Translations under genes and position numbers: made by a program
Notes under the pieces: generated by a model
Seen by the model: only the letters and a program-made list of their open reading frames with translations
Databases searched by the model: none
Told to the model about the DNA's origin: nothing
Shown here: positions 4,240-6,407 of the stretch, one piece after another
Layout: each line of letters begins with the position of its first letter
Numbering within the stretch: position 1 is the first letter of the stretch
Origin: Clostridium sp. HBUAS56010
GTDB taxonomy: Bacteria > Bacillota > Clostridia > Lachnospirales > Lachnospiraceae
Reading direction: 5' to 3'
NCBI RefSeq assembly: GCF_007115105.1
Contig: NZ_SULJ01000001.1
Coordinates: forward strand, 744,001 to 808,000
DNA: 64,000 nucleotides

Positions 4240-5112
4240 TTACTGCCCTGTAAATATCTGTGCCAGAGGAGAATTCTTAGGTAGAATTAAAGTGTTGTTT
4301 TTGCTGGTCAGAGAGTTCTTTGCCGCCTCAAGAGAACGGACAAAAGAGTAGAACTCTGCTCTCTGGGGATCATTGTAAGCCTCCGCCAGAATTCTCATAT
4401 ACTCTGCTTCCCCCTCTGCCGTAATGGAAGCCGCCTGTGCCTGGGCATCAGAAATGCTGATGGCGATCTCCCTGTCTGTTGTATTTTGTATAATCTTTGC
4501 TTCCGCCTGACCTTCTGCGGTATAGGTGGCAGCGATCTTAGCTCTCTCTGATATCATCCGTTCGTAAACAGCCGCTTTATTATCCACAGGAAGATCCAGT
4601 CGTTTGGTCTCTACTGCCAGAAGAGTAATTCCATACTGGCTCATATTATCTCCCACATTTTTCATAATTGCCTGGGAAAGTTCTTCATCCCTGCTGCTTA
4701 TCACATCATTCTGGCTCATACTGCTTATGACATTCTTTACCGAGTTATAAACAACGGTATCAATTCTTGCTTCTGCATTGACGATGGAAGAATTTAAAGA
4801 CTGGGCAAATTTGAGGGGATCATTGATCCGCCATAATACATAGCTGTCACTTAACATGGTCTTTTTATCCATGGTAATAACGTCAGACGCTGCCAGATCA
4901 TAGATAAGAATCTGTTTTGGCAGGGTATCTGCTGTCTGGATAAACGGAATCTTAACGGATAACCCTGCTGTTCCAATGACCCGCTCCACACGCCCGAACT
5001 GACGGATCAGCTTATATTCGTTTTCGTTGGTAATGACCAGGGAACCAAATAAAAGAATGATGACTGCAAGTACAGCAATGGCTAAACCAGCTCTTTTTAA
5101 TATTTTTCTCAT
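4240..5112 (-). CDS. hflC: SPFH membrane protein, HflC family
   Basis: A 290-residue protein with one N-terminal membrane helix (about 8-28), an SPFH/band-7 domain (about 25-210) and an alanine/glutamate-rich coiled-coil segment (AEGQAEAKIIQ, AEGEAEYMRILAEA). HflC pairs with HflK to form a cage that modulates the membrane protease FtsH; this is known from E. coli and inferred here. Its ATG overlaps the hflK stop by 4 bp (ATGA), so the pair is translationally coupled and cotranscribed. The end LPKNSPLAQIF resembles HflC C-termini. Confidence 0.88.
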   Translation of the reverse strand: MRKILKRAGLAIAVLAVIILLFGSLVITNENEYKLIRQFGRVERVIGTAGLSVKIPFIQTADTLPKQILIYDLAASDVITMDKKTMLSDSYVLWRINDPLKFAQSLNSSIVNAEARIDTVVYNSVKNVISSMSQNDVISSRDEELSQAIMKNVGDNMSQYGITLLAVETKRLDLPVDNKAAVYERMISERAKIAATYTAEGQAEAKIIQNTTDREIAISISDAQAQAASITAEGEAEYMRILAEAYNDPQRAEFYSFVRSLEAAKNSLTSKNNTLILPKNSPLAQIFTGQ

Positions 5113-6101
5113 TCCGCTTTCTCCTTTTCTCCTCCGGCATCTTTTGCTGCACCATCTCCAGTAAAGCTGTCAAGGGGAAGAATTGTGCTGGTCTTATCTG
5201 TACCGTCAATAATAACTTTCATATCAGGCAGAACCTTTTCCATGGTCTCATAAAACATTCGTTTCCTTGTCACTTCCGGATTTTTCTGAAATTCAATATA
5301 CATGGCATTAAACTTGGCAACTTCTGAATTCGCTTTATTGACTCTCTTTGCTTTTTCAGATTCTGCTTCCTGTAAAATTTTATCCGTCTGAGCCGTAGCT
5401 TCCGGAAGTTTTTCATTCCTGTACTTATTGGCATTGTTTATAGCAGTCTCTTTTCCCTGCTTCGCTGTCTCTACCGCTTTAAAAGCTTCCATAACCTCCT
5501 GTGTGGGAGGTTCGGAATCCTGAATGGTCACATTCACCACAGTCAGGCCGATATCATGACCTTCCAGCTTTTCCATGATCATCTGTTTTATCTTTGTCTG
5601 AATCTCATTTTTTCCCATAGTCAGGACAGAATCCACATCATAGCTTCCAATTACAGTTCTGATACAGCTTTTTGTGATGCTTTGCAAAACCTTTAAAGGG
5701 TCTTCCGAAGCATAGACGGACTTAACCGGATCTGCCACTTTATATTCTACAAAAAAATCCACATTTACAAAATTATAATCCTTGGTGATCATCAGAGAAT
5801 CTTCTTCCTTACTTTCATTATCACCAGGATCATATCCAATGGCAAATCCCTGAATGGTGGTATTCACTTTTTTCACATTCTGGATAAACGGCACTTTAAA
5901 ATGCAGTCCCGACTGGGTCACAGACCTTGCCTTTCCCATGGTGGTTACCACTGCCTGCTCCTGTTCCTGAACGTTGTATAATGAGCTGAAACCAATAACA
6001 GGTACTGCAATCACCAGCACCAGGCCAATTCCTGATCTTTTCATAATACGTTTTACTTTTTGCCACACTTCATTTTTGCGGGGATCAATTGTTTCCATCA
6101 T
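5109..6101 (-). CDS. hflK: SPFH membrane protein, HflK family
   Basis: A 330-residue partner of HflC: a short cytoplasmic tail, a membrane helix at about 24-42, an SPFH domain with the LHFKVPFIQNVKKVN region near 75-95, and a long helical stretch (about 215-275). The glycine-rich N-terminal extension seen in proteobacterial HflK is missing, as usual in Firmicutes. AAAGGAGAGAT precedes two adjacent ATG codons (6101 and 6098). It is the first gene of the unit and lies about 90 nt behind a riboswitch-like aptamer and terminator, with a consensus promoter at 6326-6354. Confidence 0.88.
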   Translation of the reverse strand: MMETIDPRKNEVWQKVKRIMKRSGIGLVLVIAVPVIGFSSLYNVQEQEQAVVTTMGKARSVTQSGLHFKVPFIQNVKKVNTTIQGFAIGYDPGDNESKEEDSLMITKDYNFVNVDFFVEYKVADPVKSVYASEDPLKVLQSITKSCIRTVIGSYDVDSVLTMGKNEIQTKIKQMIMEKLEGHDIGLTVVNVTIQDSEPPTQEVMEAFKAVETAKQGKETAINNANKYRNEKLPEATAQTDKILQEAESEKAKRVNKANSEVAKFNAMYIEFQKNPEVTRKRMFYETMEKVLPDMKVIIDGTDKTSTILPLDSFTGDGAAKDAGGEKEKAE

Positions 6102-6189
6102 ATCTCTCCTTTCAATTCCTGCCTCTCGTAATGAAAATCAGAACATGCTTCCTTCACAGAGTACTGCAAACGACCCTGTATAATAAAAT

Positions 6190-6229
6190 AGACTTCTATT
6201 GACACCGCTTACGGCATCAATAAAAGTCT
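6190..6229 (-). terminator. Expression-platform terminator of the hflK leader
   Basis: A 13-bp stem with one mismatch pairs 6190-6202 with 6217-6229 and is followed on the minus strand by a T-rich tail (TATTTTATTA). Its 5' arm contains the 3' strand of the aptamer P1 helix, so P1 and this terminator cannot form together. This is the layout expected of an on-switch in which ligand binding prevents termination. Confidence 0.65.
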
Positions 6230-6314
6230 TGCAATTTCATAAGGATGCGGGTCAATTACTTTACCGTTCTGACGCAATCTCTTCCAGCAATCTGCTGGCT
6301 GCTACTCCCTTTTA
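6221..6314 (-). ncRNA. Candidate yybP-ykoY (Mn2+) riboswitch aptamer
   Basis: Read on the minus strand, the leader begins TAAAA-GGGAGTAGC and ends GCAAGAC-TTTTA. GGGAGUAGC and GCAAGAC are the conserved junction strands that I remember for the yybP-ykoY family, and the flanking TAAAA/TTTTA close helix P1. Inside, CCAGC/GCTGG forms the expected short P2 hairpin and a TGCG...CGCA stem can form the second arm. The aptamer starts within about 10 nt of the predicted start site of a perfect sigma-A promoter and is followed by an overlapping terminator. The second arm is less well conserved, which is the main uncertainty. Confidence 0.72.
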
Positions 6315-6325
6315 CGATTGGAATG

Positions 6326-6354
6326 ATTATATCAGATGCCCCGTTTGGTGTCAA
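6326..6354 (-). promoter_or_regulatory. Consensus sigma-A promoter of hflKC leader
   Basis: TTGACA (6349-6354) and TATAAT (6326-6331) on the minus strand, exactly 17 bp apart: a full consensus match, the strongest promoter in the window. It drives a leader of about 220 nt ahead of hflK. Confidence 0.85.
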
Positions 6355-6407
6355 TCAAAACCCTGTATTTTTATGCCAAAAACCTTATTTTTCCTGTATT
6401 CTTTTAA

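Follow-up and report, generated by a model that had tools for sequence, protein, structure and literature searches.

A divergent yybP-ykoY-type leader, probably a metal riboswitch, upstream of hflK-hflC in Lachnospiraceae

Known manganese riboswitches and the hflK leader

The yybP-ykoY RNAs (Rfam RF00080), described from L. lactis yoaB, E. coli alx and mntP, and B. subtilis meeY (ykoY), usually control genes for P-type ATPases, TerC, MntP or GDT1 proteins. Some of these targets are also given in PMC11477304 and PMC10550928. In L. lactis, the Mn2+ site is formed by G9, U39, C40, A41, U44 and C45, with N7 of A41 conferring selectivity (PMC9190785), and the counterpart of this Mn2+-contacting adenosine in X. 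oryzae is A48 (PMC6754395). As described for L. lactis, docked L1-L3 with metal stabilizes helix P1.1 and polymerase passes (PMC11087558), contrary to a review that labels the class 'OFF' switches (PMC11477304).

We analysed a leader upstream of hflK-hflC, on the minus strand of a 64-kb stretch of DNA (hereafter the window). It has in common with the described RNAs the L1 strands, an L3 of the form UCAnnnC, the order P1.1, P1.2, P2 and P3, and a P1.1 that is also part of a terminator; in the wider set of related RNAs, the neighbours include genes for P-type ATPases, TerC, MntP and GDT1. Unlike those RNAs, it falls outside RF00080, lacks P4 and has hflKC as its target. The features are as follows, all on the minus strand.

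6326..6354, minus: sigma-A type promoter, TTGACA-17-TATAAT with TG before the -10 (motif scan, recurrence in genus leaders)
6309..6318, minus: 5' strand of the predicted switch helix P1.1, AUCGUAAAAG, pairing with 6226-6216
6303..6308, minus: 5' strand of L1, GGAGUA, invariant in the genus alignment A1
6299..6302, minus: 5' strand of predicted P1.2, GCAG, pairing with UUGC at 6234-6231
6284..6298, minus: predicted P2 hairpin, CCAGC/GCUGG (genus and family covariation analyses)
6239..6283, minus: predicted P3 arm, with outer helix, UGCG/CGCA, L3 bulge and distal stem (same covariation analyses as P2)
6266..6272, minus: L3, UCAGAAC (compared with L. lactis, X. oryzae and E. coli alx)
6235..6238, minus: GAAA linker at the P4 place of solved aptamers (sequence comparison)
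6227..6234, minus: 3' strands of P1.2 (UUGC, 6234-6231) and L1 (AAGA, 6230-6227)
6216..6226, minus: 3' strand of P1.1, CUUUUAUUGAU, common to the terminator
6190..6229, minus: intrinsic terminator hairpin of 18 pairs, U-rich tail at 6189-6180, -24.7 kcal/mol
5109..6101, minus: hflK (NCBIfam HflK, 237.7 bits, cut-off 159.4)
4240..5112, minus: hflC (NCBIfam HflC, 177.5 bits, cut-off 134.4), overlapping hflK by 4 nt

The perfect TTGACA-17-TATAAT promoter reported in a first-pass annotation of this DNA was confirmed, with all 12 letters matching at 6354-6326 (-35 at 6354-6349, -10 at 6331-6326, spacer 17). A scan at a 9-of-12 rule found two promoter-like sites against 1.1 expected, and only the perfect 12/12 match is notable in it; the promoter is also kept across the hflK leaders of the genus (the -10 of L017 lies outside the sequence seen). 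From a predicted RNA start at about 6319, the leader extends some 218 nt before hflK begins at 6101, in agreement with the 'roughly 220 nt' first given. The core pair that had been described as closed by TAAAA/TTTTA was located as GGGAGTAGC (6309-6301) and GCAAGAC (6232-6226), closed by GTAAAAG/CTTTTAT. The L1 motif GGAGUA...(G)CAAGA, which spans P1.1 and P1.2, is invariant in A1 except for the G.

The terminator was also as annotated: its 18-pair hairpin at 6229-6190 takes up the AGACUUUUAUUGAU strand, which is the 3' strand of P1, and a terminator scan found this one site against 0.3 expected. Two miRNA-type Rfam matches at the leader sit on this hairpin and were discarded. The naming of the downstream genes as hflK and hflC held as well, both proteins scoring above their NCBIfam cut-offs.

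The aptamer-like part comprises the first 103 nt (6318-6216). The segment 6318-6170 folds at -50.7 kcal/mol (z = -5.13), the terminator dominating the drawn fold, and the window aptamer, which contains G-U and mismatched pairs, has a free fold of -22.0 kcal/mol that differs from, and is preferred to, the curated fold at -16.0 kcal/mol. P1.1 is weak, with one or two G-C pairs; at its top the leader has one such pair (GGGAGTAGC/GACTTTT), whereas the RF00080 loci compared mostly have two. The P4 and four-way junction of solved aptamers are absent from the window leader, which has only GAAA in their place. Among loci found with RF00080 and inspected by eye, P4 is absent from L270 (GDT1 next) and L275 (P-type ATPase next) and present in L263, L265, L266 and L267, and we read P4 as a probably optional element of the class.

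Conservation in relatives and the Rfam model

Among named records, the nearest relatives go by Lacrimispora and allied Clostridium names, and Hungatella is also near. In a genus set of 25 genomes, 20 had a true hflK (E < 1e-90), and the leader with its terminator was kept before hflK in 17 of these 20, including the window's own genome; the three genomes that lack it have HflK proteins 50-51% identical. The two strands of L1, the loop L3 and the terminator all reappear ahead of hflK in these 17 genomes, which confirms the observation of promoter, leader and terminator as more than chance. The expectation that the core would be kept wherever hflKC is kept thus held for near relatives (17/20) but not for distant ones, in which the leader precedes hflK in only 15 of 124 family upstream regions.

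We built a covariance model, R1, from the alignment A1 of 11 of the 17 genus leaders (taken from 16, L004 being dropped as a copy of L003), and a second-round model, R2, from family RNAs. Both models end at P1, so matches resting on the terminator alone were discarded as an explanation. At E up to 0.1, R1 has matches in 116 of the 397 genomes of the family. R2 recovered, in place and at E 4e-10 to 0.009, 29 of 30 RF00080 loci retrieved from the phylum (a subset of the RF00080 places in the phylum scan), missing L273; it also matches E. coli alx (21.6 bits, E 0.023) and the full set of six RF00080 loci supplied from the genus, and misses E. coli mntP. Across the phylum, 64 of 199 genomes have an R2 match at E up to 0.01. 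By these model scores, the leader is statistically homologous to known yybP-ykoY members. The sole other R2 match in the window's genome at E up to 1 is weak (L292, 24.8 bits, E 0.14; G000 C56:109170-109266, minus strand). L292 has a UCAACAU-type L3 and, by eye, a P1-overlapping terminator, and it precedes an open frame with P-type ATPase sequence.

The helices drew their support from the family rather than the genus. Genus-only covariation gave two-sided changes in 3 of 30 pairs, which 41 of 500 shuffles equalled. In the family alignment, made from 85 of the 90 R1 loci among the matches listed (L049, L050, L052, L059 and L066 were omitted), two-sided changes occur in 27 of 30 pairs. Of the family pairing cells, 91.5% pair, compared with 68.9% when shuffled and at most 49.0% in slid controls, and the covariation score is 0.548, compared with 0.165 when shuffled (reached by 0 of 500 shuffles) and at most 0.096 in slid controls; this alignment was fitted to the model structure and leans toward it. 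P1.2 provides an independent test because it is absent from the model. Its pair 1 is standard in all 85 distinct RNAs (72 G-C, 12 A-U, 1 G-U; shuffles mean 74.8, highest 79) and its pair 3 in 67 of 85 (shuffles mean 44.5, highest 55), with pairs 2 and 4 adding less (84/85, highest shuffle 83; 62/85, highest shuffle 64). The 5' strand of L1 reads GGAGTAGC, GGAGTAAC or GGAGTAGT in 85 of 85 RNAs. These comparisons support the predicted P1.1, P1.2, P2 and P3 helices of the yybP-ykoY class. A terminator overlapping P1 was found in 72 of 87 family RNAs, where shuffled downstream DNA would give 10.4, and in 9 of 13 of the hflK/SPFH set by the same strict rule.

The Rfam scan proposed in the first-pass annotation came out negative. 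No Rfam family reaches its cut-off anywhere within the window, and RF00080, with a curated cut-off of 45 bits, has no match at that gathering threshold or, in 6050-6400, even at E up to 10; nor does it match in the window's own genome or, at E up to 1, at the hflK leaders of any of the 25 genomes of the genus. The core of the yybP-ykoY-type reading nonetheless stands on homology, switch architecture and the place before hflKC in many relatives, so that the first interpretation is supported in part. The miss is largely a failing of the Rfam model: RF00080 clears its cut-off in none of the 397 family genomes and in 6 of the 199 from the phylum, and relaxed thresholds yield 15 of 397 (E up to 0.01) and 43 of 199 (E up to 0.001), respectively, while R2 recovers 29 of 30 RF00080 loci. 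Class membership is clear from these comparisons, and we file the leader as a yybP-ykoY variant formally outside RF00080, since it is not a formal RF00080 member and has no P4.

In the genus, six genomes hold between them seven places with sub-cut-off RF00080 matches of 35-40 bits (L031-L036 and L044). At three of them (L031, L032 and L036), inspection by eye found a 401-aa hydF-like GTPase gene before the RNA and a Na+-pump decarboxylase beta (OAD_beta)-like gene after it. One genome, G018, carries two equal-scoring sub-cut-off copies 2.2 kb apart. Short RF00080 matches of 19.7 bits occur in G014 and G012 (L037/L038), and R2 gives the L038 RNA 41.6 bits. SSRC10 (RF02617, Streptococcus sRNA 10) resembles the leader over a region spanning the GGGAGUAGC, CGUCA..ACG and GCAAGAC blocks, and scores 27-33 bits on L070, L078, L075 and L031; it differs in being listed as an sRNA, and its match to the window stays sub-threshold (14.2 bits and E 3.1 against a cut-off of 56). 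By inspection, we take its consensus to be that of a yybP-ykoY RNA with a terminator, presumably a Mn2+ leader.

Genes downstream of the RNA and the association with hflK

To describe the genes that follow the RNA in the family, we took a census of 87 R1 loci among the matches listed (L049 and L050 restored; L083 without an open reading frame), with classes assigned by Pfam or NCBIfam on one representative per main group. A P-type cation ATPase gene follows at 23 loci, a gene for a 150-aa protein at 20, HflK/SPFH at 13 (L106 being, by eye, another SPFH type), OAD_beta at 8, YccF at 6, a CaCA (Na+/Ca2+) exchanger at 5 and flotillin at 3, along with eight singles and the one locus without a frame. 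By eye, a Na/Pi-type transporter also follows the RNA in the family, and in a genus-mate the RNA (L080, G022 C2:3284070-3284189) precedes a gene for a Kup-type K+ transporter (Pfam K_trans). The flotillin-type genes (L074, L082 and L094) form a second SPFH group beside HflK; the L094 protein has Pfam and NCBIfam matches, the NCBIfam one below its cut-off.

The 150-aa protein had no Pfam or NCBIfam match in the one member scanned (L118), and a YccF gene follows its gene in 11 of 16 loci read by eye (L054, L058, L063, L072, L073, L089, L090, L110, L118, L120 and L134). The 150-aa/YccF group is possibly a subclass with changed specificity.

Of the 29 R2 loci read in the phylum scan, all but one lie outside the family; the gene that follows encodes a P-type ATPase (11), a CaCA exchanger (9), GDT1 (4), TerC (2), MntP, OAD_beta or a citrate-type transporter (1 each). 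Pfam was run on ten of these; the remaining ATPases and exchangers were named by BLAST to family members, some exchangers at 23-28% identity, and one GDT1 by inspection. The OAD_beta neighbours raised a tie to Na+ riboswitches, of which Rfam includes the Na+-I class. In the window and at 20 family loci, the Rfam matches include no Na+-class name. The Na+-I riboswitch (DUF1646 motif) also controls oxaloacetate decarboxylase genes (PMC9337991). The tie was set aside, the core letters being those of the Mn2+ class.

A family hflK was found in 128 of 397 genomes at E up to 1e-40, and we examined the upstream DNA of 124, some of it short (G138 and G139); G072, G239, G269 and G275, near contig ends, were omitted. 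The leader precedes hflK in 15 of the 124, from 12 genera (G000, G022, G070, G384, G168, G066, G416, G173, G274, G120, G203, G088, G315, G261 and G305), and is absent from the other 109. In G261, the leader and hflK are 543 nt apart with a 92-aa frame between them. Left out of the 15 were G288 (18.2 bits, E 0.033) and G138, in which the R1 match and hflK lie on different contigs. Among named hflK loci, 24 of 80 carry the leader, a count of 24 out of 76 once loci with too little upstream DNA are set aside. On a tree of HflK proteins, the leader label needs 6 changes, compared with 21.4 when shuffled, and at least 5 are forced by well-supported branches (quick method). This pattern suggests that the leader was inherited within clades, with several gains or losses. 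The 17/20 genus genomes, the 15/124 family upstream regions and the clustering on the HflK tree led us to discard the idea that hflKC stands next to the RNA by chance.

Predicted metal pocket, proposed switching and possible physiological meaning

The L3 of the window, UCAGAAC, has UCA and C at the spacing of U39-C40-A41...C45, and A6270 aligns as the counterpart of the Mn2+-contacting adenosine, A41 in L. lactis and A48 in X. oryzae. E. coli alx has UCAUUAC. Position 44 is A in the window and U in L. lactis, where it makes a phosphate contact to the metal. Seven-letter loops are found in 21 of 23 P-type ATPase RNAs (the other two have eight letters) and in all OAD_beta (8/8), CaCA (5/5) and flotillin (3/3) RNAs. 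In the hflK/SPFH set, L3 has seven letters in 8 of 11 and six in 3 of 11, with UCA kept in 11 of 11. Six-letter loops characterize all 6 YccF RNAs and 14 of 20 RNAs before the 150-aa gene, and the aligned L3 lacks the adenosine in 3 of 85 family RNAs, all before the 150-aa gene.

We propose that the leader is probably a metal riboswitch, a divergent one of the yybP-ykoY type, and that it switches on the hflK-hflC operon. Starting at about 6319, RNA polymerase would produce the 5' strand of P1.1, then L1, P1.2, P2 and the P3 arm with L3. At high Mn2+, the metal would bridge the L1 and L3 phosphates and N7 of A6270, holding L1, and thus P1.1, together; P1.1 would then keep the strand CUUUUAUUGAU from the terminator, and hflKC would be transcribed. 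At low Mn2+ or without ligand, the terminator would form and should win, because P1.1 is weak and the terminator strong (-24.7 kcal/mol, compared with -16.0 kcal/mol for the curated aptamer). Mn2+ is strongly implied as the ligand, and the anatomy suggests the ON direction in vivo.

The same fold and switch could instead answer another cation or pH as their natural signal, the hflK group having drifted in specificity, which we consider unlikely. The window and genus L3 is canonical, with seven letters and the adenosine, E. coli alx shows the same pattern and the P-type ATPase RNAs have the same loop. In favour of another signal, the family RNA also precedes OAD_beta (8/87), Na+/Ca2+ exchanger (5/87), K+ and Na/Pi-type transporter genes, and L3 is one letter shorter in the YccF (6/6), 150-aa (14/20) and some hflK/SPFH (3/11) RNAs. 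Mn2+ riboswitches also bind Co2+, Cd2+ and Ni2+ (PMC11477304), and one study treats alkalinity as an additional input at E. coli alx and mntP (PMC9603457).

Two readings dispense with metal sensing at hflKC altogether. A plain attenuator, in which the terminator sets basal hflKC expression or answers a protein or polymerase pausing and the aptamer-like part is metal-free, would accord with a terminator more stable than the curated aptamer (-24.7 versus -16.0 kcal/mol) and with the action of NusA on P1.1 in L. lactis (PMC11087558), but it needs none of the invariant or covarying L1, L3 and P1.2 letters common to known Mn2+ sensors, making it very improbable. We give still less credence to the short terminated transcript being a trans-acting RNA product with hflK a mere neighbour. 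Elsewhere, leaders cut short by a terminator can function in trans, but here strand and closeness to hflK are kept in 17 genus genomes and 11 further family genera, and the remaining copies of the RNA lie ahead of different genes, again on the same strand.

HflKC encircles FtsH and restricts the range of membrane proteins that this protease degrades. Under the proposed Mn2+-responsive ON switch, the purpose would be to raise HflKC, and so to hold back or redirect FtsH, at times when the membrane is loaded or mis-metalated by Mn2+. The first-pass annotation knew of no link in the literature between Mn2+ and FtsH modulation or membrane proteostasis in Clostridia; in B. subtilis, Mn2+ and FtsH are already linked (PMC10550928, PMC7231995), although not via hflKC in the main texts. 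There, FtsH is essential without the TerC proteins MeeF and MeeY, which co-purify with FtsH and flotillins, and MeeY is itself a riboswitch-controlled TerC protein (PMC10550928). In addition, YqgP presents MgtE to FtsH, and excess Mn2+ raises cleavage (PMC7231995). These are links at the protein level, and HflK is absent from the main texts of both papers.

In the full-text literature searched, outside which most subscription journals lie, we found no report of a link between a Mn2+ riboswitch and hflKC, and nothing on yybP-ykoY with Lachnospiraceae or on a manganese riboswitch with HflC; yybP-ykoY with flotillin returned only the TerC work (PMC10550928). As far as this search extends, hflKC is a new riboswitch target.

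More tentatively, and with slightly less than even confidence, we suggest that Lachnospiraceae may hold a large branch of Mn2+ riboswitches nearly missed by Rfam, with a regulon that extends past metal transport to proteins of membrane scaffolding and quality control: HflK/HflC, another SPFH protein, flotillins and a YccF operon. Mn2+ would then set the state of FtsH and of SPFH membrane domains, and the ligand may have changed in the YccF/150-aa group with its six-letter L3. In this large family RF00080 sees almost nothing, passing its cut-off in 0 of 397 genomes, compared with the 116 that R1 matches at E up to 0.1. A riboswitch on hflKC fits the finding that B. subtilis FtsH is essential without Mn2+-exporting TerC proteins (PMC10550928). 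If Mn2+ is sensed by the leader, metal levels would be tied to membrane protein quality control, and a metal riboswitch on hflKC makes testable the question of whether Mn2+ sets HflKC and thereby FtsH output.
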